DNA from: a virus
DNA length: 64,000 bases
Virus record (IMG/VR): IMGVR_UViG_3300031576_000004
Span: 99,303 to 163,302 of that record
Strand: one strand, 5' to 3'
Of this stretch, positions 1-64,000 are shown one piece after another. Position numbers and translations under genes: made by a program. The notes under the pieces were generated by a model that saw only the letters and a list, made by a program, of their open reading frames with translations, ran no database searches and was not told the DNA's origin. The first letter of the stretch is position 1. Each line of letters starts with the position of its first letter.

Positions 1-3000
1 TAGCCATGGTATCGCCGTCGAAGTCAGCGTTGAACCCCTTAACAACGAGAGGGTTCAGGCGTATGGCTTTCCCTTCAACAAGCTTTGGCTGGAACGACAT
101 AATGGAGAACTTGTGCAGAGTCGGAGCCCTGTTTGCCATCACCGGTCTATCCCGCATGGCGATCTCAAGAGCCTTTCGTGCAACAGGAGACTTGTCCTCA
201 AGTTCCTTGCGGGCATCAAGCGGCTTGTAGCCCTGCTGGTGTAGTTCTTTAATCGCGAACGGCCTGTAGATCTTCCAGGCCATGTCCTCAGGAATCCCGA
301 TCTCATCCAGCGTCAGCTGTGGCTCAGGGATAATTGTGGACCTGCCTGAAATCTCTTGTCTGCGACTAATGATCCGGTTCTGGAAGAATCCTTCCTTGTT
401 CCTATTGCCTTTAATGGTCTCAATGAGTCCGCGGTATTCTCTATTGGTTAGGGTATCACCTAGACCAGAGACGCCCTTCATCCCCTGGTAGAGATCCTTC
501 CTCAGATTCTTCAACTCAGAATCAGGAATACCTGCGGCCTTTGAGTCCTTGATCGAGTTATTAACTGCGATCAGATCCTTGTAGAGAGCGTTAACGTCAG
601 AGACAACGAGGTTCCCGTCTTCAAGCGGATAGATCGGACGGAACTTCGGCGGGATAACAGGAACGTTCTTTGTTATGTAAACATTCGGATCCTGCTTGTT
701 ATCCTTCAGGGCCTTAAGGTAGCGGATCTTCTTGTTTGCCTTATCGAGCTCGTCACCAGTCAAACCCTTTGCATCACCAACTGCTCCGGCTAGATCCTTT
801 GTGACGTTAACCTTATCAAGCAGCTTTTTAATGGCGACGCCGCCAGTTACAGATCCAGCTTCATGGGTCGCAGTAAATCCATGCTTCTCTGAGTAGTAAA
901 GCTCACCAGAGATTAACGCGTCGTACTGAGACCCAGTCAGGCCTGTAATCGTTTTAATGGCGTTCTCAAACATCGGGTTAGGGAGAGCCTCTGAGAGCTC
1001 GATGTGGGACCACTTAGACCCAGCATGCCCGCCGGTAATATTGGGATCGAACAAGCCATCCTTCTCTGGCTGTAGGTTCTTTCCCTTGATGATCTTTGGC
1101 TCCTTAATTTCGCCAGAGCTCATCGAGCGCACTTCTTTATCGGTCATGGGAACAAGCTGCATGTTGTTCCCGTCTTTCTTGACATCTACGCCGGTGCCCT
1201 TCACCATCGTTATGAACTTCTCGAATGCGAAGGGGACCTTTGGCGCTGGAAGTGACTGGCCTGTCTGAATGGCGCGCCAGAACTCCTCGTTCTTCTCGCT
1301 CTTGTGCGTAGCCATTTCACGAAGGTTATGTTTTGCTCCGTGGGCAAGCATGGCGTAAAGATCTAGGGTTCCGATGGACTGGCCACCTTCTCCGCCACCT
1401 TGTCCAGGCTGCATATCGGCCGTATAGCCGTCACGATCTCTCGCAGAGAACTTCTTCCTTGTCGGATGGTCAAGCTTCAAGATGTACTGCCTGCCAACAA
1501 GAACAGGCGGAAGCTTCCTGTTGAGTTCTGGATCAAATATAGTTTCTTTGTCCGTAAGGCCAGCGTCCTTGAGGTCTTTCTGAACCTTCTCAAGGTAATT
1601 GTCCTCAGAGAAGTTCCTAACTACATATGGCTTGCCAGTCTTATCAGCAATCTTGCCAGCTACGGTCTCGAGAACCTGCCCAACGTTAACGCGGGACGGA
1701 ATCCCGTGAGGGTTCATTAGGATGTCTATCTTCGTTCCGTCGTTAAGAGTTGGGGTCTCAGCGTCAGATAGGATCTTCCCAATAATGCCCTTGTTTCCGT
1801 GCCGACCAACTAGCTTATCCCCTACTTTGGCTGGCTCTTCCGTAGAGATAAGGACCTCGATCTTTCCACCAGTCTTAACAACGTCGGTAACTGTCCCGAC
1901 GTCATCCTCTTCCCATGTGACGGATCGATTCTTATATGGCTTGATAAACGCCTTGTGCAGCTTGGAAAGGAGCACGTCGTCAGTTGTCTTCTCTTCCTTC
2001 CGCATTAGGGCAATAACGATTTCTCCATAAGCGACCTTTTCGCCCTTCTTAATTACTCCATCGGCATCATATTTTCCAGACTGCGCAACGCTGATGTTCT
2101 CTGGGTAATACGCCTTGAATTTGTCCAGGTTTAGAAGGGCATTCTGATCCAGCTGCGCCGACATGCGATGCATGTGCAATGACGTCAGCTTCTTCGCCGC
2201 ACTCTCGGAGACAACAATGGCGTCTTCGAAATTGTAGCCCTTATATGGGACGTATGCCGTTACAAGGTTAGTCCCTAGGGCGATATGCCCGTCCTTCGTG
2301 TAATTAAGTTCATCAAGAAGCTGGCCCTTGGTTACCTTGTCCCCAACCTTAACCTGTGGGGCAGAGTCCAGATAGACCTTAGAGTTAAGTGGGTAGTGAT
2401 CATAAAGCGGATAACGATTTGTCTTCCCTGATTTCCCCTTAACAAAAACAGCGTCCTCGGTGACCTTTGTGACGGTCCCATCCTCATGGGACTTGCTCGT
2501 GTATCCAGCGCCAATCTTGCTCTCATAGGTGCTGCCCTGTTTATCTTCAACCTGAACAAGCGGGCGCTCTCTATGAAGAAGCGGGAGGGCCTGCTCCATC
2601 ATCTTTGAGGCCATCATGGCCCTGTTACCCTGGTCATTCTGCAGAAACGGGACCATATTTGTCGAAACGTCAAACATCGAGCTCGGTGATGGAATTATAT
2701 ATTGAACCTGTTCTGGCTTTACCTTGGCCACCTCGCCCTTATGAATTGCCTTAACTAATGGATATTTCGTGACGAATTTCCCGCCCTTAAGCTCATCCTG
2801 ATATTGATCCCTAAACCCAACAACGACATCAAATACTTGGTTCGGAGACAGTTCTTCTTTAAGTCCAGTCTTGGCATTAAACAGGGCCGTCTTTAGGCTG
2901 TTACCTACCTTTGAAGCATTAAGCGCTAAGTGCAGAGTGGTTCCGATGGCCCCTGATTCTGGCGAATGAAGCGGGTCCAGGAATCCGATTGAAGAAGGGT

Positions 3001-4117
3001 GAACAGCTCGCGCCTCTGCGGTGACGGCATGCTCATTTCCAATGCCGCCCTCGCCCATGATGGTGACCTTGGTTGTCTCTCCTAGCATATGCAGAGGATT
3101 AGTCTGCTCTGGTGTGTTGGATAGCGTCGTAGAGGTAAAGAAATCCTGGATGGGGGCATTGAGGGTATCAATCCCGATGATGTCCCTAATCCTGTCTTTC
3201 TTATCAATTACAAAGCCAATTCTAGCTTTAATCCTATTAGCGCTTTTTGTAATACGCTCAGCCACAAAGTCGTCTGTGGAATGTATTGTCTTGAACTCCA
3301 GTGAGTCCCTGTCATCAGGGGCTCTTTCGTTCCTGGATACGGTCAGGATGCGCGCAGACGTGCTGAGAAGCATATCTGCCGTCACGCTGGCGAACGCCGT
3401 CCCCAGCGTCATTTTTGTCGTCTCTGGGTCGATCTTGGTGTCGTTGAAATAGTTTGATATCGCGGCGATTGAAGTAGCTAGATCTGGGGCTGCCTTATCG
3501 AAAATAGCCCTATAAAGCTTGGCTATTTCCTTGTCGTAATTACCACCTTTGTTCTGTGCGGCTAGATCATTACCCCAAGCGCCAGCGATCTTGGCCTCTG
3601 TAATCCCAAGGGCCATGAGAGCGTGGTATAGCTTTACGTTGGATGTCCCTACATTTAAATAGAATGTTCCGCTTGTAGGATCAAGGATAATCTTGAAATT
3701 CCTGCCCTTAGCAAGGTTGACCTGAGACTCTAACTCTCCATTATCTTTAATTCTTGTGTAAACTCCTGGCTTTAATCTGAGCTGGTTTGTTACCTGATAT
3801 TCATTTCCCTTAACAATGTAAGAGCCCCTAGGCGTTAGCTTCGGAAGATTGGCAACCTTGATCTTCCTGGCGTGATCTATCGTTTTCCCAGTGGCGTTAT
3901 CCTTTAGGGAGAAGTCTCCGTAGACCTGTGCAGCCCACGACTTCCCCCTAAGTTTGGCGTCCTTCTGCCCAGCGAAATCATGCGCGGCCTGGGTATCCTC
4001 AACCCAGACATTATTAAGGACCAGAGTTTGATTGGTGCCCTTATATGGGAAAAGGGCTGCAACTGACTCTAAGAACCTGCGCTTTATGCTCTCGTATTGC
4101 GCCTGGAAATCAAGCAT
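1..4117 (-). CDS. rpoBC: Fused beta-beta' multisubunit RNA polymerase, 3' end outside window
   Basis: The frame is open from ATG at 4117 (GGAGG just upstream) to the left edge, about 1372 codons without a stop. The first ~940 residues read as bacterial beta: LPKLTPRGSYIVKGNEYQVT, the NDQGNRAMM rif-region motif, PYKGYNFEDAI, GDKLVGRHGNKG and the C-terminal GQSIGTLDLYAMLAHGA clamp segment. Beta' then starts with almost no linker (SSGEIKEPKIIKGKNLQPEK, then DGLFDPNI) and continues through VIPPKFRPIYPLEDG, ISGRSTII and VMANRAPTLHKFS to NADFDGD, the Mg-binding aspartate triad. The beta' N-terminal zinc ribbon is missing: DGLFDPNITGG runs directly into WSHIELSEAL. The rest of beta' lies beyond the window. 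It should transcribe phage genes. Family call is secure; role and partners are inferred. Confidence 0.93.
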   Translation of the reverse strand, partial: MLDFQAQYESIKRRFLESVAALFPYKGTNQTLVLNNVWVEDTQAAHDFAGQKDAKLRGKSWAAQVYGDFSLKDNATGKTIDHARKIKVANLPKLTPRGSYIVKGNEYQVTNQLRLKPGVYTRIKDNGELESQVNLAKGRNFKIILDPTSGTFYLNVGTSNVKLYHALMALGITEAKIAGAWGNDLAAQNKGGNYDKEIAKLYRAIFDKAAPDLATSIAAISNYFNDTKIDPETTKMTLGTAFASVTADMLLSTSARILTVSRNERAPDDRDSLEFKTIHSTDDFVAERITKSANRIKARIGFVIDKKDRIRDIIGIDTLNAPIQDFFTSTTLSNTPEQTNPLHMLGETTKVTIMGEGGIGNEHAVTAEARAVHPSSIGFLDPLHSPESGAIGTTLHLALNASKVGNSLKTALFNAKTGLKEELSPNQVFDVVVGFRDQYQDELKGGKFVTKYPLVKAIHKGEVAKVKPEQVQYIIPSPSSMFDVSTNMVPFLQNDQGNRAMMASKMMEQALPLLHRERPLVQVEDKQGSTYESKIGAGYTSKSHEDGTVTKVTEDAVFVKGKSGKTNRYPLYDHYPLNSKVYLDSAPQVKVGDKVTKGQLLDELNYTKDGHIALGTNLVTAYVPYKGYNFEDAIVVSESAAKKLTSLHMHRMSAQLDQNALLNLDKFKAYYPENISVAQSGKYDADGVIKKGEKVAYGEIVIALMRKEEKTTDDVLLSKLHKAFIKPYKNRSVTWEEDDVGTVTDVVKTGGKIEVLISTEEPAKVGDKLVGRHGNKGIIGKILSDAETPTLNDGTKIDILMNPHGIPSRVNVGQVLETVAGKIADKTGKPYVVRNFSEDNYLEKVQKDLKDAGLTDKETIFDPELNRKLPPVLVGRQYILKLDHPTRKKFSARDRDGYTADMQPGQGGGEGGQSIGTLDLYAMLAHGAKHNLREMATHKSEKNEEFWRAIQTGQSLPAPKVPFAFEKFITMVKGTGVDVKKDGNNMQLVPMTDKEVRSMSSGEIKEPKIIKGKNLQPEKDGLFDPNITGGHAGSKWSHIELSEALPNPMFENAIKTITGLTGSQYDALISGELYYSEKHGFTATHEAGSVTGGVAIKKLLDKVNVTKDLAGAVGDAKGLTGDELDKANKKIRYLKALKDNKQDPNVYITKNVPVIPPKFRPIYPLEDGNLVVSDVNALYKDLIAVNNSIKDSKAAGIPDSELKNLRKDLYQGMKGVSGLGDTLTNREYRGLIETIKGNRNKEGFFQNRIISRRQEISGRSTIIPEPQLTLDEIGIPEDMAWKIYRPFAIKELHQQGYKPLDARKELEDKSPVARKALEIAMRDRPVMANRAPTLHKFSIMSFQPKLVEGKAIRLNPLVVKGFNADFDGDTMA

Positions 4118-4202: not shown

Positions 4203-4226
4203 TTAATTTTGGGTATAAGAATATGG
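4203..4226 (+). promoter_or_regulatory. Putative phage promoter, GGTATAAGA family, copy 1
   Basis: TTAATTTTGGGTATAAGAAT lies about 60 bases upstream of the lytic transglycosylase start, in the divergent gap next to the RNA polymerase gene. The same T-rich block followed by GGTATAAGA occurs at 27883 and 36359, each time upstream of a plus-strand operon. TATAAG resembles a -10 element, and no -35 is obvious. Promoter function is inferred from recurrence and position. Confidence 0.6.
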
Positions 4227-11962: not shown

Positions 11963-11982
11963 TGTCTACTCCCCTTTCTTTT

Positions 11983-12016
11983 AAAGAAAATGTGGGCGAT
12001 GTCAATATCGCCCACA
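11983..12016 (-). terminator. Minus-strand intrinsic terminator or attenuator
   Basis: On the minus strand, TGTGGGCGAT pairs perfectly with ATCGCCCACA around a six-base loop, followed by TTTTCTTT. It lies 122 bases after the 12139-13038 stop and only about 20 bases before the start of the next gene (11962), leaving little room for a promoter. It may therefore attenuate, rather than end, transcription of the fibre array. Confidence 0.75.
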
Positions 12017-14033: not shown

Positions 14034-14042
14034 TTTTACTCC

Positions 14043-17803: not shown

Positions 17804-17848
17804 GCTTACACCATAGCATGATCCTGCCTGCGATGGAAGCCTAAAGTC

Positions 17849-27786: not shown

Positions 27787-27882
27787 ACGAGGATGCCTCC
27801 TGGTGCTAATTCCACTCATTTTAGTCAGGGACACGCTCCAAGTCAACGTGTTTTGGGGCTGTTTCAAAATGGCTCATTTACC

Positions 27883-27909
27883 TTATATTTTGTGGTATAA
27901 GAATTTGTG
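27883..27909 (+). promoter_or_regulatory. Putative phage promoter, GGTATAAGA family, copy 2
   Basis: TATATTTTGTGGTATAAGAA lies about 50 bases before the GTG start of the first gene of the 27952-36355 operon. It shares ATTTT, then GGTATAAGA, with the sites at 4203 and 36359. On the minus strand the same region offers a weaker TATAAG, so divergent initiation toward the portal cluster is possible. Confidence 0.62.
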
Positions 27910-29897: not shown

Positions 29898-29951
29898 AAC
29901 CCTATAATCCGTGTGCCAGGCAATCCGGCCTGGCACACGAGGAAAAGGACG

Positions 29952-30275: not shown

Positions 30276-31285
30276 CCGACAACTGGAAAGACTGTGTTAT
30301 TGAGGGCGCGAAGGAAACAATACAAGCGGCCAAAGAAGAGTTTGAAAAATGCGACGCAAAGATAAAAGAGACCGTTAAATCTGAACTAGCCGCCAGCAAC
30401 GAAGAGATCAGCGAGATGAGCGAGGAGATAATCCGCGAACACGGCTGGGCCAAAACTGGTCTTGAGAATGCCATTAATAACCACGAAAAGGTGGATCATC
30501 TAATAAAGAAATTCGATGCTGCCGGAAGGCGATTCGAATTCATTGATGAGCCTCATATGGATGGCTTCTATAACGGGTCTTGGGGAAGGCAATACCCAAG
30601 GATCTCGAGGACGCTTTGCGTCTTTGACAAAAAGGGAACGGCTAAGGCATGGTACAAAGTTCATAGCGCACCAACAGACGGCATTGAAAACGGCTGGCAC
30701 TCGATGAATATCATTAAGAGGAGCAGCTCCTATTGGAGAGTGCCGCCTATTATGCGGAAAGCATTTAGTGCCGCCGCGAAATTACACTTAGCAATGCTTC
30801 CATATGAGGTAAGCCTAAAAACTGCTTACGGGATGATCGGAGAGCACATCGGATATAGGGATAGAATCATGCGCTTCAAAAGAGTTACATATGGCGTTGC
30901 GTATGGTTTCAATCCTGCGTCTGGAGATTCCATCGGCATTGCCTATGGCCTGGCCAACCTAAAGAACAACGCGAGCATAGAAATTACAGGACCTGTCTGG
31001 CACATTGATAATAGACTTTGGGTAAATAATCAAAACGTTGCCGATGGTTCTGGAGAGGAAAAGCGGAAGTGTGGCGGGATCATACAGTTCTATTCATTTC
31101 GCGAGGGGTCGTTGACATCGGCGTATCAAAAGCGTCCGCTGGTCTACACAGACATCGCAAAGAATGAATTGACGAGCAAGATGAAGTCTCCGATCCAGGA
31201 GGCTAGCTATGATTGGCTCAGTCTCCCAAAGGATCAAATCAAAAGGAGAATAAGTGCGATTCGAGAAATACGCAGTAAAAAATGA
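30257..31285 (+). CDS. Unknown 342-residue protein in MoxR-VWA operon
   Basis: The start is TTG 30257, chosen because GGGGAGGA lies six bases upstream; GTG 30269 is the alternative. Residues ~15-75 are coiled and charged, then an aromatic-rich globular part follows (DGFYNGSWGRQYPRIS and SYWRVPPIMRKAF). It overlaps the 29952 gene and runs 32 bases into the VWA gene, so the three are coupled. I cannot assign a family. Gene order suggests it may be the adaptor or substrate of the ATPase. Confidence 0.64.
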   Translation: MGENVLADNWKDCVIEGAKETIQAAKEEFEKCDAKIKETVKSELAASNEEISEMSEEIIREHGWAKTGLENAINNHEKVDHLIKKFDAAGRRFEFIDEPHMDGFYNGSWGRQYPRISRTLCVFDKKGTAKAWYKVHSAPTDGIENGWHSMNIIKRSSSYWRVPPIMRKAFSAAAKLHLAMLPYEVSLKTAYGMIGEHIGYRDRIMRFKRVTYGVAYGFNPASGDSIGIAYGLANLKNNASIEITGPVWHIDNRLWVNNQNVADGSGEEKRKCGGIIQFYSFREGSLTSAYQKRPLVYTDIAKNELTSKMKSPIQEASYDWLSLPKDQIKRRISAIREIRSKK

Positions 31286-32612
31286 CAGCTTCGACCGGAA
31301 AGCCTTTCAGGACATCCGGAAGAACTCTGAGAGTCTAAAGGGTCAATTTGATAGGAATGCAGAGAAGCTTCCAACGTTTGACACGCTCCAACAGGACGTG
31401 TACTCGGCTCTATACAAATATGAGCCAGAATTAGAAAGCGAACGTCGCTTAGATCCTAAGAATAGGGTCCATCTCGATCTAATTAAAAGCATGATGGAGA
31501 TGAAGGAATATAAGGACCTCAGAGGCCAAACGCTACTGGATGAGTTTGCGTCTGCTCTTGCAACCGATGCTATTGCTGAAAAGATCCTGGAATACCTGCC
31601 TCCGAAGGAGGAAGAGGAACAGGAAGGCGATGGCGATGGAGACGGCAAGGGCAAGAAGAAGAGAAAGAAGCCTAACCCAGACGACATAAAGAACGCCATT
31701 AAAAGTGGCCTTAACGACGCAAAATCATCTGTTAACGAAGCGAATGACTGTCTTGCTGGCTGGGGTCTTGAAAAGGGCCAGCTTCACAAGACAGGCTACA
31801 AAGAGAAGGTCCAGCTCGCCCAAAAGATCATGGGCAGCCACAAGCTGAAGGAGCTCGCGAAGATCGCCGGACGGTTCCGCAGGCTAGCCTTGTCTACGCA
31901 AAAGACAAAGGTTACCCGCGGATGCGATGAGATATTCGAGCTCGAGCGCGGAGATAGCCTTGAGCGCGTGCTGCCTCAAGAACTGGCTAACCTGTGCCAC
32001 CCAGTAAGGAAGTTTGATTTCTACAGACGCTTCACTGAGAAAGATCTGATGCAATATCAGGTTAGAGGCAAGATCAAGGAAGCCAAGGGACCAATCATTA
32101 TCGCAATGGACGAATCTGGCTCTATGAGCGGTGAAAGAGAAATCTGGGCAAAGGCTGTCGGACTAGCCCTAATGGAAATCGCCGTATCACAAAAGAGAAC
32201 CTTCGGATGGGTCCATTTCGGATCCTCAGAAGAGATTAAGACCCACGTCTTCAAACACCAAGACGGGCGTCCAGATATCGAACAGATGATTGAGATGGCA
32301 GAGTTCTTCTTTGGTGGAGGAACCGACTTCGAGTCCCCCCTCACAGAGTGCAGGAAAATCATTGATGGCGATCTGCCAAAAGCAGATGTTGTATTCGTCA
32401 CCGACGGCGAATGCGGCGTTAACGATGAGTTCCTTGAGACATTTAAAAAATGGAAGCAAACAAGCGGGGTTAACGTATACGGAGTCCTTATGGGGACCTA
32501 CGGAGACGAACAGCACCCGACAATGGATCAATTCTGCGACACCGTAATAGACGTGGCTGCATTAGAGGATCGCGGGGGCGATCACGCAGTGAACGTCTTC
32601 CAGCAGATCTAA
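31254..32612 (+). CDS. CobT-like VWA-domain protein
   Basis: A 452-residue protein from GTG 31254 with AAAAGGAG upstream. Residues ~115-145 are acidic then basic (EEEEQEGDGDGDGKGK, then KKRKKPNP), a typical CobT-type linker. The C-terminal VWA domain keeps the full MIDAS: DESGS (residues 286-290), Thr357 in GGGTDF, and Asp384 in FVTDGE. Such proteins pair with CobS/MoxR ATPases (cobaltochelatase and RavA-ViaA are known examples). In this phage no cobalamin genes are visible, so a chaperone-like role fits better than pigment synthesis. Confidence 0.84.
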   Translation: MRFEKYAVKNDSFDRKAFQDIRKNSESLKGQFDRNAEKLPTFDTLQQDVYSALYKYEPELESERRLDPKNRVHLDLIKSMMEMKEYKDLRGQTLLDEFASALATDAIAEKILEYLPPKEEEEQEGDGDGDGKGKKKRKKPNPDDIKNAIKSGLNDAKSSVNEANDCLAGWGLEKGQLHKTGYKEKVQLAQKIMGSHKLKELAKIAGRFRRLALSTQKTKVTRGCDEIFELERGDSLERVLPQELANLCHPVRKFDFYRRFTEKDLMQYQVRGKIKEAKGPIIIAMDESGSMSGEREIWAKAVGLALMEIAVSQKRTFGWVHFGSSEEIKTHVFKHQDGRPDIEQMIEMAEFFFGGGTDFESPLTECRKIIDGDLPKADVVFVTDGECGVNDEFLETFKKWKQTSGVNVYGVLMGTYGDEQHPTMDQFCDTVIDVAALEDRGGDHAVNVFQQI

Positions 32613-36358: not shown

Positions 36359-36383
36359 TTATTTTCCGGTATAAGAGTATAGA
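36359..36383 (+). promoter_or_regulatory. Putative phage promoter, GGTATAAGA family, copy 3
   Basis: TTATTTTCCGGTATAAGAGT begins three bases after the stop of the AT-hook gene and about 75 bases before the lipoprotein ATG. It shares the T-run and GGTATAAGA core with the sites at 4203 and 27883. Its spacing and position suggest it drives the monocistronic lipoprotein gene. Confidence 0.62.
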
Positions 36384-37344: not shown

Positions 37345-38677
37345 ATTTTTTATCTCGAAGGGTAAGCCATCCTGGCTTAACTTCAAACTCCCCGTTGTGA
37401 TCGATGGGGTCACCTATCCTGTGATCTGTTTGGCTTGCAGCAATAGATTTTCCTGCTCTGCTTTGCCGCAGAACTGGAGATCGAGAATGAGCATCGGGAA
37501 GCCTATCCATAAGGATTCCGAGTGCTTCCATTTCAACGTTGCTGATATCTGCAGAAGCTGTTCTTTCACATCCAGCTGCTACAAGCCAACCAGGTCAAAG
37601 TGCATCGCTAGCGGAGGCCCACAGCTAGATGCTCTTCCTAATAGCACTCCAAGAGATGCCACATCCATTAAGGATGGTCGGGAACTCGCCTACAGTATCA
37701 AGACGAAATACAGGGTTATCACGTGGCTCTTAAAGCGCGTGTGCGATCGTGATTCTTCTCTTTATCACACATTCGCGATTAAGAAGCGCGGTCGCAGTGG
37801 CAAGATGAGAACCATTACGGCTCCAGATAAGTATCTCAAGGAAATTCAAAAGAAGATCCTTAAAAATGTTCTCTACCAGTTCCAACCGTTGGACTGTGTG
37901 ACGGCGTTTGTGCCTGGGAAGAATGTCATCAAAAATGCAGCCCAGCACATGGCCGCCACTCCAGGAAGCGTTGATATTAAGGACTTCTTCGATACGATAT
38001 CGTCTCAGCGGGTATATGGACTATTCCGATCGATCGGGTTTAATAAGCGCGTATCTGGAATTATGACTGCGCTTATGACATGGGATGGGAAGGTTCCTCA
38101 GGGAGCTCCAACCAGCCCGTGGATTGCAAACGCCATATTCCACAGAGGGGACAAGAAGATCCTGTCTGCTGCTGGTAAGCTTGGCTTCTCATATACACGA
38201 TACGCCGATGACATTACCTATTCACAGCTTAGCGGATTCTCTAAGGGGAAGAATATCGCCTTCACAGAAATCGTGAAGCGAATCGTAGAGGAAGAGGGTT
38301 TCAAGCCTAACGACGACAAGACAAAGGTTGCCACCAATTACGTTACCGGTCTTAGCGTTTCGGGTGACAAGCCAAACATCCCATACGACAAATTCCACGA
38401 AGTCAGGCAGAGCATTCATAAGGCGTATTGGAACGGGATCGCCTCAGAGGCTTCCTACAACAATGCTCCGGTTGGCTTGTTCACGCAGAGAATCAATGGG
38501 GTACTCCAGTGGTTCACGCAGGTAAACCCTAGCCGTCCTGGGTTATCCAAGATGGTTGAAAAGTGGGAGCTCGCAAAGAAAGGTATAAGACCAAGTGCGA
38601 ACCAATCTAACCAAAGTGGCGCTGGATGCGCACCTCAAGTCGTTGGCGCTGGCACAGGCAACGCTCAAACGAATTGA
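37292..38677 (+). CDS. Retron-type reverse transcriptase with cysteine-rich N-terminus
   Basis: A 461-residue protein from GTG 37292 (CAGGAG upstream). Residues ~130-430 are an RT: NAxxH (NAAQHM, 215-220), motif A VDIKDFF with Asp228, motif B QGAPTSP (270-276), YADD (304-307), and VTG (351-353). NAxxH plus VTG is the retron-RT signature. Residues 46-104 hold eight cysteines in two CX2CX5C units (C46/C49/C55 and C87/C90/C96) plus C78 and C104, a metal-binding module not typical of retron RTs. No msr-msd structure was found near it. It should copy RNA into DNA; the biological role, perhaps defence or counter-defence, is open. Confidence 0.86.
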   Translation: MTQPYYLTIQGKKKTKAEFFISKGKPSWLNFKLPVVIDGVTYPVICLACSNRFSCSALPQNWRSRMSIGKPIHKDSECFHFNVADICRSCSFTSSCYKPTRSKCIASGGPQLDALPNSTPRDATSIKDGRELAYSIKTKYRVITWLLKRVCDRDSSLYHTFAIKKRGRSGKMRTITAPDKYLKEIQKKILKNVLYQFQPLDCVTAFVPGKNVIKNAAQHMAATPGSVDIKDFFDTISSQRVYGLFRSIGFNKRVSGIMTALMTWDGKVPQGAPTSPWIANAIFHRGDKKILSAAGKLGFSYTRYADDITYSQLSGFSKGKNIAFTEIVKRIVEEEGFKPNDDKTKVATNYVTGLSVSGDKPNIPYDKFHEVRQSIHKAYWNGIASEASYNNAPVGLFTQRINGVLQWFTQVNPSRPGLSKMVEKWELAKKGIRPSANQSNQSGAGCAPQVVGAGTGNAQTN

Positions 38678-54675: not shown

Positions 54676-54728
54676 TGCCGTTTCCAGATTTTACCAGTTC
54701 CATTTCACCCAGTCAATCTATGAGAAAT

Positions 54729-56615
54729 CTAGACGAGAGTCAGAGTCACTGAATCCCCTGGCATCGGAAGCACATCGGACGGCACCATGAACCCAACAAG
54801 CATATAGTCAGTATAGGCTGGTTTAATAGCGTCGAGGAAGCTTGTTATGTCGCTAATTACGGATTCTGAATTAAGAAGATCCATTGCCACCTTAACCAGA
54901 AACACGTGGTGCTTTAAGTACCTATAGAACAAGATGTTAATCTCGTCTGCCTCGCCAGACGTTAGGAACAGAAAGTCATCGAATATCCCGCCGTCATCAA
55001 GGAACCCGCCGTCATCGAAATATCCTGAATATTGGAAGTCTGGATCAACGGCAAATTGGGCGACCAGGCGGAATAGGGACGGGAACTGCTTGTACCAGTC
55101 AGGCGTGTTTACATCGTCAATTACATCAACGCCATCGCTTATTGCTGCAAATCTTGATAGCTGGTCCCCAGCAGAAACTATTGGGCTTCTTGGTTGATTT
55201 ACTACAAAGACCTGGCCATCAGATAGTGTTATCTCATAAGAGGCCGGAACCAATCCATCGTTCGTGATGGATGCTACAGACGTTGGCGTAAGAGCGAATG
55301 GAAGCCCAAGAAGGATCTTTAGGCCTGTCTCTATGTTTGATACTGTTGGCCCGTTCCATAGGACGTACCACAGCCCCTGAACCTGTCTCCTATACAAGTC
55401 GCTATTGGGCCTAACAAGCCCAACGATCTCTCCGAAATTCCTTTGGACCGTACGCTCGTTCACAAATAGGTCTGGGAACCAAGCGTCCTCAAATTGGACA
55501 TTCGTGAATAGGAACCCAGACCTAATGGTGAATTCCGCTGGGTTTGTGAGTTTAATCCCAGGAATCTCGACGTAGTCCTGCATTACTGGGGCATCGATAA
55601 TGTCCGGATCCAGCTCGTGTCTGTAGAGGTATTCGAAGTAGTGGTATTCAACCTCTACGATATCCTGCTGCACAAGCGTCTGGTTAAACAGAATGATGTC
55701 GCTGTTAATCCCGACTACCTTATAGTCGATGTCTCGTGTCAGAAGGACCCCGTTCAGGAACACGGACTCCGCGTATTTAAGAGTGTCGAATCCAAGGCTG
55801 TCTCCAGTGACAGTGGCAACTGTGACCTTAACCGCCGTGCTAACCTCATTCATTATCTTTGTAAATCTGAAATGCTTGTGGACCTCGTTCTCATTATCCC
55901 TTGTCCACCTTAGCTCTATTTTGTCTCCAACAAGCAGGCCGACACCAAGAATTAACGTTACGCTGTTAAACTCCGTGTAGAACGATTGGTCCTGCTTTGC
56001 ACCGTTTACAAACACCTCAATTGGGTTGTCGGCGTCTCCGAATTGATACGGCCCTTGCCCCAGTGGATCAAAGGCATCTCCAGCAGCTCCGGTCCATGTT
56101 GCCTTCGGCGCTGTTAAGAGTTCGGCGAACCTAAGATGCCTGTGCTCTTCGGGGATCTCGTATCTGTACCAGACAACATAAACAACGTCTCCGGACGCTA
56201 GAGGCTGAACGAAATAAACCTTTGTCGCGTCAGCTATGTTGTATGTGTAATCAGTATCTCTAGTCATGTAAACGCCGTTCAGGAATACTGCGAGATTAAC
56301 CTCTTCCTCTGGTGGAGATGCAGCAGGAACTAGCGTAACAAAGGTTTCTCCGCCAGTTGCCGTAAACTCGAACGCAAAGTGGTCATGAGGAACCTTGTTA
56401 TCTATGTAAGCGTCGAACTGAATATTCACCCACTGCTTGTGCCATCTAACAGGAACAGTCAGAACTGATTTCGACAGGTCAGCCTGATAAACCTGAAGGT
56501 ACTCGTTATCCCAAACGGTTGTCAGCCCCTGCCAAAACTTGGAGAGCTGGCTACGCTGTTGATAGCTCTTCCAGAAGTCTGAAAGGACTGAGTAGAACAG
56601 ATCTGATTCGGGCAT
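54729..56615 (-). CDS. Large tail-baseplate structural protein with FLNGVxLTRD modules
   Basis: A 628-residue protein. It starts with a helical part (SDFWKSYQQRSQLSKFWQGL), then repeats modules of the type VFLNGVYMTRDTDY, VFVNGAKQDQSFY and VFLNGVLLTRDIDY, each joined to a beta segment. A C-terminal helical region (TSFLDAIKPAYTDYMLVGFM) ends in DVLPMPGDSVTLTLV. The same module recurs at 47614 and 52645. Its end-to-start contact with the J-like gene (56615) places it at the baseplate. Exact function is unassigned. Confidence 0.72.
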   Translation of the reverse strand: MPESDLFYSVLSDFWKSYQQRSQLSKFWQGLTTVWDNEYLQVYQADLSKSVLTVPVRWHKQWVNIQFDAYIDNKVPHDHFAFEFTATGGETFVTLVPAASPPEEEVNLAVFLNGVYMTRDTDYTYNIADATKVYFVQPLASGDVVYVVWYRYEIPEEHRHLRFAELLTAPKATWTGAAGDAFDPLGQGPYQFGDADNPIEVFVNGAKQDQSFYTEFNSVTLILGVGLLVGDKIELRWTRDNENEVHKHFRFTKIMNEVSTAVKVTVATVTGDSLGFDTLKYAESVFLNGVLLTRDIDYKVVGINSDIILFNQTLVQQDIVEVEYHYFEYLYRHELDPDIIDAPVMQDYVEIPGIKLTNPAEFTIRSGFLFTNVQFEDAWFPDLFVNERTVQRNFGEIVGLVRPNSDLYRRQVQGLWYVLWNGPTVSNIETGLKILLGLPFALTPTSVASITNDGLVPASYEITLSDGQVFVVNQPRSPIVSAGDQLSRFAAISDGVDVIDDVNTPDWYKQFPSLFRLVAQFAVDPDFQYSGYFDDGGFLDDGGIFDDFLFLTSGEADEINILFYRYLKHHVFLVKVAMDLLNSESVISDITSFLDAIKPAYTDYMLVGFMVPSDVLPMPGDSVTLTLV

Positions 56616-58342
56616 TAGAGTTTCGTCACGTTAATCGTCTTTGGGATAAACCTCGAGTTCCTTGGGATCGTTATTGTGTCGCTTGTCGTGACAACAACTG
56701 AAGATCCATCTGCATTTCTGGTTGTCGCTGTCGCTGATAGAAGCGATAGAGGAATGCTCGTTACTCCAAGGAAATACAGCGATGCAACAAAGTCGGATAT
56801 CTCAAACATGTCGCCGGCCCTCAAGTCGTCAATGTACTGGCGTATCGATTCTTCCAGGGCATCCGCGGTTGCGTCTCCGCCGTAGGTCATCGTAATATCG
56901 AGGAAGGTAGGGACGTCGCTCTTAACAAGCAGATTTGCGGTCACAACCCTGTCTAGGTCGGACTCAACAAATTCCTGAACTGATCCGACTGTGGAATCAG
57001 TGTAATACTCAACCTTTATTGTGGCTCCTATGAAGTACCTTGGTGCTATTGGGTTTGTCTCAAGAAGCCTTATCAAAACTGTTTCTTTTGACGAATACCT
57101 CGTGGTCACGTCTGTTGAAATAAGAGCATAATCGCTTCCCTCAACAAAGTCTGATGCGACCTGCTCGCCAGTTACAGGATCTATCTGGTAGATTCTAGAC
57201 ACCCCAATGAACGGAAGGACAAAAGCCCCGCCGTTGCTGTAATATGGCTGCGTTTCATCCTTGACCTCTATATCCTCTGGGGCCGGAGCTATGATGAGAG
57301 AGTCTATCACGAGCGTTGTTGTGTTCAGGTGGATATCGACCTTACCACCAATATGGAAGTCTGCCTTCTCATATATCCCGAATATATGATATTGAACGCC
57401 AGCCTGAGTCACTGGGAATACGGGGCTAACGGTTAGCACAGTAGGCGTTACCGCCGTGATCACGTAATTGCTTTCGTTTGGACCGACTTCAACAATAACC
57501 CTTGCCCCTGGCAGGACGCCAGCAAGGATGAAGTTTGTGGTCGTGTCTGTGAACTGAGGAAGTCCTCCAGTGACAGACCCAGTTAGCGCCGTAGGGATTA
57601 GCTCCAGATAATTCAAGGCTATCCCGACAATATCCCTATTCATCTCCGGATCGCCAAACCCAACCGTGATGATGTCTTCAACCTGTTGGAATTTCTCCAA
57701 GATCACGGTATTAATGGATCTGCGCGTTACTAGGTCTCTAGTCCCGATTGATTCTTTTGTTCTTGAGAACAGCCGAGTGTTTGTCTCTCCGCTAGATCCG
57801 CCAGTGAAATCTTCTGCGTTGTTAACTCTGATGACTCCGCTAGGCGCTCCGGTTGTGAACACGATCCTTCCGGCGTCGACGTTTCCTGTTTCTCCAGAGT
57901 TGACGGCAATGCAATTAACATCGATGAAAAACATCACGCCGTCAGTGTTTAGGCGCATTGCTTCGCTTGTGGTCGTTGTCTGATTGATCGGACGAAATTG
58001 AATCTGGTCATCAGTAAGGAATAGAACGTCCTGGTCTATCGTGACGTCCCTAGGGCTTGAGAAAAACACTCTTACCGAGCCAACCGAAGGAGTCCCGCCC
58101 TTCCTATCAACGAACACATTTGCTACCAGGGAGTCAAGCTCCTCATCGAACATTGTGTCGAAGTTCAGAAGAGACATATTTCTCTTAATGATGTTCGCCT
58201 GATCTCGATACGGCTGAAGGATCAGGGCTGTCGGCTTGATAAGCATATCTCTGTAGGCCGTTCCCTCACGGAGATCAAAGTCTGGGAAATTCTCCTTCAG
58301 GAGAGTTTCTATGAATTTAATCGCTGGAAGATCGAATGCCAT
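56615..58342 (-). CDS. Baseplate J-like (gp6/gp47-type) protein
   Basis: A 575-residue protein with the marks of the baseplate J family: DLREGTAYRDMLIKPTALIL near residue 20, ELDSLVANVFVDRKGGTPSV, SVRVFFSSPRDVTIDQDVLF, then a C-terminal LDITMTYGGDATADALEESI and IRQYIDDLRAGDMFEISDFV. This protein joins wedge segments in contractile-tail baseplates. It lies directly beside the gp25-like gene, as in many myoviruses. Length fits the family. Confidence 0.82.
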   Translation of the reverse strand: MAFDLPAIKFIETLLKENFPDFDLREGTAYRDMLIKPTALILQPYRDQANIIKRNMSLLNFDTMFDEELDSLVANVFVDRKGGTPSVGSVRVFFSSPRDVTIDQDVLFLTDDQIQFRPINQTTTTSEAMRLNTDGVMFFIDVNCIAVNSGETGNVDAGRIVFTTGAPSGVIRVNNAEDFTGGSSGETNTRLFSRTKESIGTRDLVTRRSINTVILEKFQQVEDIITVGFGDPEMNRDIVGIALNYLELIPTALTGSVTGGLPQFTDTTTNFILAGVLPGARVIVEVGPNESNYVITAVTPTVLTVSPVFPVTQAGVQYHIFGIYEKADFHIGGKVDIHLNTTTLVIDSLIIAPAPEDIEVKDETQPYYSNGGAFVLPFIGVSRIYQIDPVTGEQVASDFVEGSDYALISTDVTTRYSSKETVLIRLLETNPIAPRYFIGATIKVEYYTDSTVGSVQEFVESDLDRVVTANLLVKSDVPTFLDITMTYGGDATADALEESIRQYIDDLRAGDMFEISDFVASLYFLGVTSIPLSLLSATATTRNADGSSVVVTTSDTITIPRNSRFIPKTINVTKL

Positions 58343-58351: not shown

Positions 58352-58801
58352 CTAACCAGTGATAGCCAAGCCATTAATATCAAGACCGACAATCGCAGTA
58401 ATCCCAGCTCTAGAAGTAACAGACAACTCAAGACTCCACAGCGCTTGCTCTATATCAAATTCAAGCGATACCACGCCAAGGGAATCAAGGGCTTCGTCAG
58501 CAGTTAGCTGATCCTTGCTTACAGATTGAAGCCTCTTGATGTCTTCCTCTGCCTTCATAATAGCGATAGACACGTCAGAGCGAACAGATTGCTCGCTTTT
58601 CCTGTTGGCAGCAGATGGGAGTATCGCGGCAATGCCTGCGCCATACTGAGGATTAAAGATGTCGTTTCCAGGTGTAGTGAGAAGGCTCTTGTAAATAATC
58701 TGAATAAGCTCACCAAGTCCACCGATCGCCAATGGGAAATTGGTGCTGGTTGGAATGATGAAGTTGTGCCTGTTTGGTACTGTTACTCTAATATCTGGCA
58801 T
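58352..58801 (-). CDS. gp25/GPW-like baseplate wedge protein
   Basis: A 149-residue protein with NFPLAIGGLGELIQIIYKSL, the TTPGNDIFNPQYGAGI motif characteristic of the GPW/gp25 family, and a C-terminal beta segment (SLEFDIEQALWSLELSVTSR). It is a baseplate wedge component of contractile tails. Position next to the J-like gene supports the call. The typical family length is about 100-150 residues, matching well. Confidence 0.86.
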   Translation of the reverse strand: MPDIRVTVPNRHNFIIPTSTNFPLAIGGLGELIQIIYKSLLTTPGNDIFNPQYGAGIAAILPSAANRKSEQSVRSDVSIAIMKAEEDIKRLQSVSKDQLTADEALDSLGVVSLEFDIEQALWSLELSVTSRAGITAIVGLDINGLAITG

Positions 58802-58805: not shown

Positions 58806-60767
58806 TCACGCTGTTAATTCCAGAGACTCTGCAGATTCTAATATATTCTGGATTTCAATCAACTTAGGTTTAAATGCAAGCTGGATAGCCGACCTATCAA
58901 ATCCGGAGTTCACAGCAGCAGAAAGCTGTTCCGACCTCTGCCTATTCTTGATAACCCTCAATATTGCGTCCTGAGCCTTTAGCTTTGACGCTCCGCCACC
59001 TTGGCGAACGAGCGCCATTGCGCTTGTTAGTGTGCTCGCGAATGATCCGGTTGAGGTGGCCGTGTCTGCCGTCGTTTTCCAGAACTCGTTCCAGTCTCCG
59101 TTCCTTGCTATCTTTGCAAGCCTGTCTAGCCCAAGGTCCTCTATAACCGCGAGAGCTCCAGCGACCATAGAGACTGCCGGACCAGCAAACCCAGAGAACG
59201 CGTTTGTAAGACTATCGTTGTTTGCGCGTTCCGCGGCAGTCAAAGAGTGGATCTGCGATACAAGGTTTGCGATATTAGGAAGACTTGTATCATTAACAAG
59301 CTTCTCCTCAGCCGCCTGCTTGAAAGCTTTTAGCGTATGTATAAGCTGAGTGAAGTCTGGAAACGATATCAGCTTGCTCGTGTCGGCTCTAAACTGGAAG
59401 TCTGTTTTGTACCCGTCTGGGTCGTTAGATAGGTAATCATCCACCACGCCACCAGTGAATCTTGTTGTCTCTAGGACGATCCCAAGCTGAATACACCAAA
59501 TCTTGGTATCAATTATGAATCGAATCTCGCTATTCTTTTCGATGTCTGCATCCATTGACGCAATGATGCTGCGGATCTCTTCCTGAAGCATCTCAAGCAT
59601 CCCAGCACCAACGTTATTCAGCCTTTTCGCAACTGTTCCGCCAAGCGGCTCTCCTCCGGCAAACTGGAAGTTCGGGATGAACTCTTCCATCGCTTTCTTG
59701 GCATTGTCGATGAACCGCTGCTTCTTCTCTAGAAGAAGTATCTTGGTGTTTAGATATTCTAGGAGGGCCAGTATCTCTACCGCCTGGACGATTTGAGCTC
59801 CAGGGAATATGCGCTCGTAGATAGCCTTGAAGTTGCAGACTATATCCTTTGCGTCATGTATGTCTGTCTTCGCGGCGTCGAATGTTTCTTCCTGGAAAGA
59901 CCCCGTGTTTATGACGGCGCTCTTAACAGTCGTGAGCCTTACGTCGGCGTCGTGTAGCTTGTTTCTCGCATCAACGATCTCTTGCCTTCTGCTGAATCCA
60001 TACCAATCTGGCCCAATAACGGCCAGCCGGCTGTAGATGTCATCAACTATCTGATCAATGTCGTCCAGGATCTTATTCTTGTCTGCGAGAAGCGCGATAA
60101 GATTAACTATCCCGCTTTTCCCTATATGAAATACACCGGCTGGGTCGGCATTTATGGCGTACCCCATAAGACCAAAAGCCTTACTAAGCTTGGCTTCGGC
60201 AACAGATACGAACGTAGCTGGGATAGACTTGATACCAGAGAAGTCTCCACGCAAAACATCTGTAACCCTGACGTTTCCTACGTTCTCTTTCCCAAGACCG
60301 ATCAAAATAGACCCACCAGCCTTTTGGCTCGTAAGGTCCCCTATTAGGTCCTTTGAGCCTCTTGTGATGAGATCTGAATATCCAGTTATATTTATCGTCC
60401 CAACAATTTTTGCAATCGAGTTTTTAACGAGCTCTGGAATGCTTTCTGTTTCCCCTGTTAAAGACGTGATCGCACTTAGTTCAGGATCAATCCCAGAGAT
60501 TACCTTTGTTTTGAGCCCGTCTGTTAATGCCGACTCAGAACTCGCAAATGAATCAAGAAACTTCGCGTTCTCAACGACGTCAGAGGCCACCCTTGAAGCC
60601 AGATCAACGGCGTGGTCTCTAACCTCATTTTTAGTCACGGTTGCGTTCGGGTTTGTAAGCAAAGGAACCATGTCCCTGGATGCTTCTGCAGGAACGCTGG
60701 CCGATGCGGAACCTATAAGGGTTCCGAGGCTTGCCTTCTTTATTGGGAAGCCAGTCTCGTTAGCCAC
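58806..60767 (-). CDS. Large helical tail-baseplate protein
   Basis: A 653-residue protein, mostly alpha-helical, with long heptad stretches (EYLNTKILLLEKKQRFIDNA and SIIASMDADIEKNSEIRFII) and an Ala/Val-rich segment (FSGFAGPAVSMVAGALAVIE). I do not recognise a family. It lies between sigma factor and gp25-like genes, in a position where tail-tube initiators and tape-measure-associated proteins occur. A structural or ejection role is inferred from place only. Confidence 0.66.
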   Translation of the reverse strand: MANETGFPIKKASLGTLIGSASASVPAEASRDMVPLLTNPNATVTKNEVRDHAVDLASRVASDVVENAKFLDSFASSESALTDGLKTKVISGIDPELSAITSLTGETESIPELVKNSIAKIVGTINITGYSDLITRGSKDLIGDLTSQKAGGSILIGLGKENVGNVRVTDVLRGDFSGIKSIPATFVSVAEAKLSKAFGLMGYAINADPAGVFHIGKSGIVNLIALLADKNKILDDIDQIVDDIYSRLAVIGPDWYGFSRRQEIVDARNKLHDADVRLTTVKSAVINTGSFQEETFDAAKTDIHDAKDIVCNFKAIYERIFPGAQIVQAVEILALLEYLNTKILLLEKKQRFIDNAKKAMEEFIPNFQFAGGEPLGGTVAKRLNNVGAGMLEMLQEEIRSIIASMDADIEKNSEIRFIIDTKIWCIQLGIVLETTRFTGGVVDDYLSNDPDGYKTDFQFRADTSKLISFPDFTQLIHTLKAFKQAAEEKLVNDTSLPNIANLVSQIHSLTAAERANNDSLTNAFSGFAGPAVSMVAGALAVIEDLGLDRLAKIARNGDWNEFWKTTADTATSTGSFASTLTSAMALVRQGGGASKLKAQDAILRVIKNRQRSEQLSAAVNSGFDRSAIQLAFKPKLIEIQNILESAESLELTA

Positions 60768-60768: not shown

Positions 60769-61467
60769 CTACATGCGTTCCTTGATTCTATTTGTTATCT
60801 CTGATCTAGCCTTAATAACGTCCTCTTCAGTCATCTTTAGGCGAGTGGCGATCTGAGAGATAGAAAGCTTTTCCTTGCCGTTAGCACCAACGCCGTAATC
60901 AAATATAAGTTTCTGCTTCGGTGTGAGCTCATAGTACGCGAAGTTAATCGTTTCGTTTGTCCTATCGAAGTCTACAAATCTGGTGTCTCCAAATGACCCA
61001 AAATGTGATAGGTCTTTTCTGAGTTCTGTTTGTATGCGCGAAACTTCATTAGGGCTCCACCCAAGCTCGTCTGAAAGCTCATCTATGGTGGGCTCGCGGC
61101 CCTTCGACGATTCCATGCTTGCCTTAACATTCTTGAATGTCTGAATCTTCATGGTCCGATGCTCTGGGATCCTTGCGACGTTCTGAAGGCCAGAGACATA
61201 ACGATAGACCTTCTGGAGGTAGTTCCCGACGTGCGTATTCAGCTGTGTCCCTCTATTCGGGTCATACGTTTGAAATGCTTTAAGAGCAAGCTTCTTCGCT
61301 TCGGCCTCGATTGCTGACCTTGGAACCGGCGCTGCCTCAAAGGCGTTAACGCGCTTTTGAATCATGGGGTTCATCGACTTTAGAAGATCACTGAGAGCGC
61401 CGTGGTCCTTGGTTTTGTTCCACTGCTTCCAAAGATCCTGGTCCTGCTTTTTAATATCTTCTGCCAC
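60769..61467 (-). CDS. Sigma-70-family RNA polymerase sigma factor
   Basis: A 232-residue protein. Region 2 is visible at ~55-95: KLALKAFQTYDPNRGTQLN, then THVGNYLQKVYRYV. Region 3 follows (VARIPEHRTMKIQTFKNVK, then PTIDELSDELGWSPNEVSRI). Region 4 lies at ~178-232 (YELTPKQKLIFDYGV, then LSISQIATRLKMTEEDVIKA, the HTH). The order fits group 3-4 sigma factors, with a shortened region 2 start. It should direct an RNA polymerase to phage promoters. It lies between tail genes, so it may be made late or be packaged. The fused polymerase elsewhere is an obvious partner. Confidence 0.88.
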   Translation of the reverse strand: MAEDIKKQDQDLWKQWNKTKDHGALSDLLKSMNPMIQKRVNAFEAAPVPRSAIEAEAKKLALKAFQTYDPNRGTQLNTHVGNYLQKVYRYVSGLQNVARIPEHRTMKIQTFKNVKASMESSKGREPTIDELSDELGWSPNEVSRIQTELRKDLSHFGSFGDTRFVDFDRTNETINFAYYELTPKQKLIFDYGVGANGKEKLSISQIATRLKMTEEDVIKARSEITNRIKERM

Positions 61468-61468: not shown

Positions 61469-63682
61469 CTACCCTCTCAAAGCTAATTGCTTTATTTCTT
61501 CAACATACGCCTTCACAACAACCTGTTTATGCCTATCGCTAGTAATGATTTTTCTATTGCCGCTTCTTAGAGTAGACTGCCCCTCTATCTGCTTTTTAAG
61601 GCTATAGTCAAACGGGCCGCCTCCACCTTCCTTGGTCCACTCAGAAGCCGATCTATCTCTAGTATTCACGTCTCCACCTGGAGACAGACCATAGTGATCC
61701 ACAAAAACCTGGTTCATGGTCGCGATTCCTTCTCTACGCCTATACTTATCAGCATACTGATACTTATCCTCTGCCTGGTCCCATTCTGACGTGCCTGTAT
61801 CCTTGCTCTTGTCTAACGCGTAAATCCTATTCGCCAATTTTGCAAAGTTGTAGACCTTGTTATTCCTTACTGCAGCCTTCTTTGCAGCGCTTGTCTCTGG
61901 GGGCTTTTCAACGCCTGAAAGATTTGATGTCGCATTTGGAATGTCAACAATGTCGGCCGTAAGCATTAATGGCTTGTCTTCCTTTTCCTTCTGCGTTATT
62001 AAAGCAATCCCAACGTCTTTATTCGTTTTCCCGTCTGCAGCGCTTTCGCTGGTCTGAAGAGACCCACAGCCGAGTAGCTTCCTATAGGTTAGCTCCGCTG
62101 TGTCCGGAAGGTAGCTTTCGCTAATCCATGCAGGAAGAACAGGAAGATCCTCTGTGTTGTCCGCGTCCAGCTCGCGTGTGTGTGTTCCGGATATCTGTGT
62201 CTGACTTCCTCCAGATCCACTTATGGTGTGCATAATGCTAGATACGTTGAACAGATAGCTCCTTGGGGCAGAGAATGCTATGGCGGGGAAATCTGCCACG
62301 ACATGCGGATTGAACTCACCAACAATGTTTATCGACCGGCTTTCGTACTTCATAAGCAAGTATGAATACTCAGCCACTCTAGCAAGATTCCTGTGCGGCT
62401 CGCCCTCCGCGGCGCTTGTTGCGTTGTATCTTCCATACGCGAGTGGAGCATCTATAGAAAGGACTCCCTTTTCTAGCTCTTCCTCGGTAATCATAAAGAA
62501 CCTTGGCTTTACACTGTCAGCGCTAGAACTCGTTGTGTCCACATCATCTCTTCTTAAGCCAATAACCTCAGAACTCTTGATCGTTGAAACGCCCAATGTG
62601 TCTAGTACGGCCCCGAGTTCCGCTGGAGCGAAATAAAGTGGCTGAAGGTTTTCTGATTGGCCCTCTGGAGTATTGACCGCGTACGGATGCGCTTTTAGTT
62701 TAAGTCTTGTTGGTTCGCTAATATACGAGCGAGAATAGTTTATCCCGCTGATGACGTCTGGGAACATGACATTGCACATCGGCGGAATTGTAAAGTGCGT
62801 TGTTGGCTTAAATATAAAGCTCCTATAATAGTTTGAACGAGTAAACTTTCTAGGAGTCCCAGTCTCAACGCGCTGTGGCTCCTCTTGCTTTATATCGTCT
62901 TTTCTTGTGCCGTCTGTTGGAGCTTCTGCAAATGTCTTTATCGCGACCTCTTCAGGCTTGCTCTCAAATACTGGCGGTCCGACATTTACGTGGGAGTAGT
63001 AAATAACCCCCTTGATCGAATTAACAATATCTAGAATCGTTGCGTTTCCGCCCAAGTGCCCCATGCTCTGGTCAACAAGGTCTTCTATTGTCCTTGCTTC
63101 AATAAGCTTCGCGACTGCTTCGTCTGGAGCCGCGTCAATCTTAGCATTAAGATTTACACGAGAATTAACATCGCTGTAGAAGACAAGCCTGTCAGTGAAG
63201 TCCCTAAGCATCGTTAGGACTGAGTCTAGAATAGACACCCCTGGCCCGAAATACCTTGAGTAGAATGTGGATAGCTTGCCGTCCACGGTGACCTCGACTT
63301 GTTTCAGGCCAAGAAAGGCTACTATCTTCCCACCCTCTCCAAAATCTTCCGCATTCATGAAGTACTGCTTCGTGTGCGCCCAATATCCAGACAAATCGAT
63401 ACACTGAGCGATAGCGCTCCTGCTTCCTCCGGCCTGTTGGGAGTAACCTATCCCTATAATTTCACCTTCCCAAAGAAGCCGCCACTCTATCTTGTTATCA
63501 AAATCATCCATGTAAAAAACGTGCACAAGCGATCTCGGCCTTAGTTTGAATGCTCCGTTTGACGGGATAAGAGATATGTTTGCTGACGTTGGAGCGTTTG
63601 GGAAAATCGAAATTGTGCACTCACTAAACGGGACCTCGATCCCCTCGATGTAAACCTTAAATGAAAGATTCTTAGATGGCAT
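61469..63682 (-). CDS. Baseplate-hub-like tail protein
   Basis: A 737-residue protein; ATG 63682 is preferred because it lies just past the upstream stop at 63684. The N-terminus has SFKVYIEGIEVPFSECTISI and RLLWEGEIIGIGYSQQAGGS, patterns found in tail hub or gp27/gpD-like proteins. The middle is beta-rich with long loops, and the C-terminus is a charged helical stretch (DKYRRREGIATMNQVFVDHY) ending in KQLALRG. Role as a hub is tentative; size and neighbours support a baseplate location. Confidence 0.62.
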   Translation of the reverse strand: MPSKNLSFKVYIEGIEVPFSECTISIFPNAPTSANISLIPSNGAFKLRPRSLVHVFYMDDFDNKIEWRLLWEGEIIGIGYSQQAGGSRSAIAQCIDLSGYWAHTKQYFMNAEDFGEGGKIVAFLGLKQVEVTVDGKLSTFYSRYFGPGVSILDSVLTMLRDFTDRLVFYSDVNSRVNLNAKIDAAPDEAVAKLIEARTIEDLVDQSMGHLGGNATILDIVNSIKGVIYYSHVNVGPPVFESKPEEVAIKTFAEAPTDGTRKDDIKQEEPQRVETGTPRKFTRSNYYRSFIFKPTTHFTIPPMCNVMFPDVISGINYSRSYISEPTRLKLKAHPYAVNTPEGQSENLQPLYFAPAELGAVLDTLGVSTIKSSEVIGLRRDDVDTTSSSADSVKPRFFMITEEELEKGVLSIDAPLAYGRYNATSAAEGEPHRNLARVAEYSYLLMKYESRSINIVGEFNPHVVADFPAIAFSAPRSYLFNVSSIMHTISGSGGSQTQISGTHTRELDADNTEDLPVLPAWISESYLPDTAELTYRKLLGCGSLQTSESAADGKTNKDVGIALITQKEKEDKPLMLTADIVDIPNATSNLSGVEKPPETSAAKKAAVRNNKVYNFAKLANRIYALDKSKDTGTSEWDQAEDKYQYADKYRRREGIATMNQVFVDHYGLSPGGDVNTRDRSASEWTKEGGGGPFDYSLKKQIEGQSTLRSGNRKIITSDRHKQVVVKAYVEEIKQLALRG

Positions 63683-63683
63683 A

Positions 63684-64000
63684 TTAAATCGAGTCGATCT
63701 TTTCTTGTGCGCGAGCCTCGAGGTCAGCCGGAAGCGCGTTTGCGTTCTCAAGAAGAGTTTTTGCGTCTTTCAATAGCGCCTCTCTACCTTGCACATTCAC
63801 CTCTCTAGTGACATACATCTGGAATGACAGCGACACCATGTTGATCGGATTCTGCGTCTGGCTCATGGCCATATTAGTAATGAATCCTTCTTTTATCGTG
63901 AAGTCGTAGGACAGGTATGCCCGTGCTCTTGTCTCTACACACTTTGTTCCGCGCAAGAAGTTTTCGTATGCCGTCTTCCAGCTGTCTCTCCACAGATAGT
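63684..64000 (-). CDS. Partial tail protein, 5' end outside window
   Basis: The minus-strand frame is open at the right edge and reads inward as YLWRDSWKTAYENFLRGTKC, then VETRARAYLSYDFTIKEGFI, QNPINMVSLSFQMYVTR, and ends DLEARAQEKIDSI. The first part (DFTIKEGFITNMAMSQTQNP) is like conserved regions of phage tail and baseplate proteins. The N-terminus lies beyond base 64000, so length and start are unknown. Its stop is two bases before the hub-like gene. Confidence 0.66.
   Translation of the reverse strand, partial: YLWRDSWKTAYENFLRGTKCVETRARAYLSYDFTIKEGFITNMAMSQTQNPINMVSLSFQMYVTREVNVQGREALLKDAKTLLENANALPADLEARAQEKIDSI

Follow-up and report, generated by a model that had tools for sequence, protein, structure and literature searches.

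What is a gene for a sigma-70-family factor doing among the baseplate genes of a tailed phage, and which RNA polymerase does its product serve? The gene (Table 1) lies in a window of 64,000 nucleotides, which covers positions 99303-163302 of a 163,302-base IMG/VR record; the record is linear and may represent an incomplete phage genome. Its minus strand carries most structural genes and its plus strand most of the small genes, and, judged by gene content, this non-structural plus strand would be the one transcribed early. The reading that we favor, with a probability of about 0.64, is that the factor acts as the promoter-recognition subunit of a virion polymerase, which is packaged, injected and starts early transcription.

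Table 1. Features of the window; coordinates are window positions unless marked as genome.
Feature	Position	Strand	Remarks
beta-beta' RNA polymerase, 5' part	2..4117	-	whole ORF at genome 97060-103419, 2119 aa
Early-type promoter motif GGTATAAG	4212..4219	+	
Host sigma70-like promoter TTGACA-16-TAAAAG	11978..12005	-	structural strand
Host sigma70-like promoter TTGACT-17-TAAAAT	27818..27846	-	structural strand
Early-type promoter motif GGTATAAG	27894..27901	+	head of MoxR-vWA operon
Early-type promoter motif GGTATAAG	36368..36375	+	upstream of reverse transcriptase region
Early-type motif GGTATAAG	38582..38589	+	inside end of reverse transcriptase gene
Host sigma70-like promoter TTGACT-17-TAAAAT	54688..54716	-	structural strand
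gp10-like baseplate/tail fibre protein	54729..56615	-	
Baseplate J-like protein	56615..58342	-	Pfam 9.3e-15
gp25-like baseplate wedge protein	58352..58801	-	
Large virion-cluster protein	58806..60767	-	653 aa; directly downstream of sigma
Sigma-70-family factor (proposed virion sigma)	60769..61467	-	232 aa; GTG start
Hub-type virion gene	61469..63751	-	760-aa ORF; directly upstream of sigma

The product is a sigma-70-family protein with regions 2 to 4. Its GTG start is preceded by a GAGAGG ribosome-binding site and abuts the stop of the upstream gene, in an operon with almost gapless neighbors. As a single sequence, it matches the Pfam family Sigma70_r3 above the cut-off (4.8e-8) and Sigma70_r4 below it (0.0027), while region 2 is missed; PF04545 alone, searched over the phage's own genome, gave no match. 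PHROG 351 (“RNA polymerase sigma factor”) matches at 1.9e-10, and in the PDB the single sequence finds HrdB, SigA and RpoS (E ~1e-7). A family profile of the sigma and 12 aligned homologues matches regions 2, 3 and 4 of RpoS/SigA collinearly (E 1e-18), which bears out an earlier reading made from the sequence alone (the sequence-only reading), in which these regions were called recognizable. For the AlphaFold2 model (pLDDT 81, with a disordered stretch at 151-168), the top Foldseek matches are exclusively sigma factors (E 3e-8); the global TM is low (0.35), because the placement of the domains is not fixed. Regions 2 and 4 are present but divergent: the canonical GNxGL of region 2.2 and the WW residues of region 2.3, which are typical of the sigma-70 family though not strictly defining, are replaced in the 12 aligned homologues.

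The sequence-only reading had placed the gene between a tail hub-like gene and a large tail protein on the virion strand, and both neighbors are indeed virion genes; orthologues of the hub-type protein carry lysozyme or SLT domains. Also among the structural genes lies a 994-aa protein with four glycosyltransferase family 2 stretches (window 14819-17803, minus strand). The place of the sigma gene is conserved. Homologues occur in Salmonella phage Arash (Gp10) and in the Vibrio phages D69, D148 and D181, and at 13 loci of IMG/VR, which were found by an alignment search, whereas a single-protein pattern search of IMG/VR for relatives found none. In 15 of 15 relatives (Arash, D69 and the 13 IMG/VR loci), the sigma gene follows a hub-type gene in a virion cluster, immediately or with one short gene between; one locus (L045) starts just past the hub, and in three (L036, L040, L043) the hub similarity lies one gene further upstream.

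A “fused polymerase” had been noted as well, and it is real: a single ORF of 2119 aa encodes beta and beta' in full as one fused chain, which includes the catalytic motif NADFDGD. Like the capsid and terminase of this genome, it is homologous to its Arash counterpart. In one relative (G002), the polymerase is read as a pair of ORFs (815 and 1302 aa) separated by 6 bases (L029:11563-14010 and 14017-17925); the break falls within the beta part and is either genuine or caused by a sequencing error. For the alpha subunit (PF01193), no match was found in this genome (G000), Arash, D69, G006 and G010, and one match below the cut-off in G009 (E 0.04). In cellular enzymes, regions 2 and 4 of sigma dock on the beta' clamp helices and the beta flap tip, respectively. 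Both elements, i.e., the clamp-helix hairpin and the flap tip, align gap-free between the phage polymerase and cellular RNAPs.

Sigma and polymerase occur together. When the search starts from the polymerase, 9 of the 10 contigs that bear it and reach 150 kb or more also have the sigma, the exception being a 150-kb contig; when it starts from the sigma, the polymerase is present in 12 of 14, and the two contigs lacking it measure 17 and 109 kb. Among 50,697 phage records, the sigma (at E 1e-12 or better) and a relative covering 99% of the phage polymerase were found in the same four. Moreover, the genes are linked: in two relatives (G001, G002), the order hub, sigma, large protein, polymerase is found on a single strand, with sigma and polymerase two genes apart.

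Virion proteomics of Arash identified the polymerase Gp206 as the most detected virion protein and also detected Gp216 (the beta' C-terminal part) and the sigma Gp10, with 128, 40 and 24 unique peptides, respectively (PMC10585845). When the published counts (PMC10585845) are divided by protein length, the three are nearly equal in spectra per residue (Gp206 2.31, Gp216 2.00, Gp10 2.00), spectral counts being a rough measure only; unique peptides per 100 aa amount to 8.4 for Gp206, 6.6 for Gp216 and 10.3 for Gp10. The Arash proteome includes enzymes that were possibly carried over, and its authors allow the same origin for the polymerase (PMC10585845); likely carry-over proteins (e.g., primase or ligase) reach 0.2-1.4 peptides per 100 aa in these virions. 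The other, different sigma of Arash, Gp196, is absent from the virion protein table (PMC10585845). Since Arash particles contain both sigma and polymerase, the injection of a ready-made transcription machine is probable in the present phage as well, where packaging of the two proteins would follow by analogy.

The resulting hypothesis is that sigma and single-chain polymerase are synthesized late from genes of the structural strand, enter the virion together and are then injected with the DNA. The two would form a holoenzyme, and the divergent region 2.2 could be an adaptation to the phage core. Once injected, this enzyme would work without alpha and probably without the host polymerase. Its start sites on the non-structural strand would be promoters that consist of a -10 element only, with G[GT][TC]ATAAG as the core; in this phage, the form is GGTATAAG. 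A phage-owned holoenzyme had been predicted in the sequence-only reading, and co-occurrence, linkage, intact docking elements and co-packaging in Arash support it; of late expression and packaging, which had both been left open, the evidence favors both.

The promoter class includes three motif regions (4203, 27883 and 36359) that had been pointed out earlier, each of which holds an exact copy of GGTATAAGA. They do represent a promoter-like class, which extends genome-wide and lies on the strand opposite to the structural genes: GGTATAAG occurs 15 times in the whole genome, 15:0 in favor of the plus strand, and most copies are located just 5' of genes. The signal resides in exact copies genome-wide, as GGTATAAGA with one mismatch, counted in the window only, is at chance level. 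The class emerged from k-mer counts, while an EM motif search on upstream regions returned mostly ribosome-binding sites. In Arash, GGTATAAGTA is the most over-represented 10-mer, and GGTATAAG is distributed 30:1 toward the non-structural strand; variants are GTTATAAG in D69 and G010 and GGCATAAG in G005. In regions 5' of genes on the non-structural strand, motif counts stand well above shuffles in G000, Arash, D69, G005, G006, G009 and G010 (motif-bearing regions in five genomes: 8/64, with 0.5 in shuffles, 20/100, 23/101, 18/98 and 17/39), and none was found in the upstream regions of the structural strand of these genomes. In nine further sigma-bearing contigs that had been kept out of motif discovery, G[GT][TC]ATAAG is biased 167:41 toward the strand opposite the sigma gene (p 3e-19), whereas the reversed pattern, as a control, is split 57:62. 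Motifs of this kind thus mark the non-structural strand in most relatives; in G004, G008, G016, G017 and G025, they are weak or missing.

The site at 27894 stands at the head of MoxR-vWA-type genes encoding MoxR ATPase and VWA proteins (window 28680-32612, plus strand), and downstream of the site at 36368 lies a reverse transcriptase (window 37487-38677, plus strand; Pfam RVT_1 1e-17), which is possibly part of a diversity-generating retroelement. Outside the window, in a stretch with hardly any called genes (genome 82775-89495), the plus strand bears 33 tRNA genes as well as a tmRNA (L008:2775-7421 and 9105-9495); a GGTATAAG site lies 0.5 kb ahead of the tmRNA.

Which factor reads the motif is a separate matter. 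The virion sigma is probably the one, but a second sigma or the host sigma could read the GGTATAAG class instead, with the virion sigma recognizing some other sequence. Most relatives carry a second sigma, which in Arash (Gp196) retains the canonical GNxGL and WW residues, and TATAAG is similar to the sigma70 -10 element. However, the 15:0 bias is seen in a genome in which neither PHROG 351 nor a profile of six second sigmas detects a second sigma (best E 0.026). For the host factor, the expected features differ: a clear or conserved -35 element was not seen at the motif sites of this genome and of Arash, where a short downstream element is found, and the G at the last position of the -10 element is invariant, unlike in sigma70. 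Moreover, the non-structural strand of this genome has no excess of sigma70-like sites over background (8 vs. 6.5 in shuffles), and on this ground host sigma70 was rejected as the reader of the early class in this genome. Taken as a whole, assignment of the motif to another factor is unlikely, if worth serious attention. Two further details concern the relatives: motif sites in D69 have a weak TTCAAT-like element upstream, and the annotated start of Gp196 (L034:35657-36694) seems to be about 59 codons too early.

The location of the sigma gene in a structural cluster, on the structural strand, also invites the idea of a late sigma, which directs the polymerase to late promoters and is present in virions incidentally. 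The model would be gp55 of T4, likewise a divergent phage sigma; gp55 works with the host polymerase, and T4 encodes none of its own. In Arash-type phages, the structural strand indeed has promoters of a second class, TAAAATA, which resembles the T4 late TATAAATA. Yet TAAAATA is not enriched on the structural strand of the present genome, in which the sigma is present (4:3 by strand; 0 of 36 regions), nor is TATAAATA, and in Arash, TAAAATA is more plausibly assigned to Gp196. The abundance of Gp10 per residue in Arash particles, moreover, equals that of the polymerase chains. A purely late role is thus distinctly unlikely. TAAAATA is found on the structural strand of relatives with an Arash-type second sigma, and pairing of the two fits Arash, D69, G006, G009 and G010; as a simple rule it is broken by G004, which has a second sigma without the motif, and the tie, confounded by kinship, is only a lead. 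What the structural strand of this genome does show is an excess of sigma70-like sites (Table 1), in 11 of 36 regions compared to a mean of 2.4 and a maximum of 6 in shuffles. The division suggested in this phage would resemble that of N4, in which the virion polymerase transcribes early and the host polymerase late.

A third possibility is that the sigma, injected or newly made, redirects the core of the host RNA polymerase rather than joining the phage polymerase. Most described phage sigma factors act with the host core, and according to reviews, jumbo phages that encode sigma factors are without their own polymerase and use the host enzyme, while those that encode a polymerase have no sigma homologues (reviews of 2020 and 2026: PMC7598289, PMC13282480). 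In the present family, however, the sigma tightly co-occurs and is linked with a phage polymerase, with which it is co-packaged in Arash, and the main core-binding region, 2.2, has lost the GNxGL that the second sigma kept, as expected if the two have different partners. This makes action on the host core improbable, and a family with both sigma and polymerase breaks the rule given in the reviews. D69 carries a gene annotated as Srd anti-sigma factor (L002:23371-23910) and may act on the host polymerase, too. Finally, reuse of the sigma fold as a structural part of the tail, without a role in transcription, could be imagined from the place between virion genes and from the divergence of regions 2 and 4, but is highly improbable given collinear regions 2-4, co-occurrence with the polymerase and the absence of an added structural domain.

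How does a sigma-guided virion polymerase compare to known systems? In N4, in crAss-like phages (virion RNAP) and in P23-45 (tail-tape RNAP), an injected polymerase has been proposed or shown to begin early transcription, but these polymerases are of other types than the one described here. None of the three is known to carry a sigma factor. The P23-45 comparison draws on PMC10770324. Closer in type are phiKZ and AR9, with bacterial-type beta/beta' polymerases, which lack alpha and use a -10-like early motif, and which are carried in the virion in phiKZ (PMC7598289, PMC13282480). Their polymerases are made of several chains as opposed to the single ORF found here, and they have no sigma recognizable by sequence: the promoter factors gp68 and gp226 are without sequence similarity to sigma (PMC7598289, PMC13282480). 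RNAP-encoding Caudovirales (mReC) are likewise tailed and have beta/beta' homologues that are near enough to cellular ones for phylogeny (PMC7481178); the words sigma, promoter and virion are absent from the text of that paper (PMC7481178). The closest match is Arash, with an orthologous sigma in the equivalent gene position, an orthologous polymerase and a shared GGTATAAG motif. It differs in that its polymerase consists of two chains, its sigma is only about 28% identical, and it has a second sigma and the TAAAATA class. The Arash paper lists the proteins without promoter analysis or holoenzyme interpretation (PMC10585845), and this listing is all that a literature search for earlier descriptions of a sigma packaged alongside a phage-encoded polymerase returned. 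The component parts are of known kinds, and their combination is new.

Such an enzyme, with one core chain and a sigma, would be a natural minimal sigma-dependent polymerase, for which a candidate promoter factor and a concrete promoter sequence are now at hand; the cultured relative Arash makes testing practical. More tentatively, and with slightly less than even odds, we suggest that a large family of tailed phages packages a complete two-chain, alpha-less, sigma-dependent polymerase of bacterial type, with about one sigma per core and its own -10-only promoters. In the present phage, the structural genes seem to be transcribed by the host sigma70 polymerase, while a second sigma, with a TAAAATA late class, would have been gained by other members of the family.

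Two observations concern motifs in individual relatives. In the Arash group, the lone GGTATAAG on the structural strand lies in a 13-base gap before the gp9-gp10 pair, of which gp10 is the sigma, in every copy examined (L001:11588 in Arash, L041:8697, L042:8697, L044:2731, L045:102, L046:8696 and L182:1194); in L182, it is about 300 bases ahead of the sigma. The virion sigma of this group may thus be autoregulated. In G005, a second strong repeated motif, ACACTGTGATAATT, occurs 5' of genes on both strands and is perhaps an operator.
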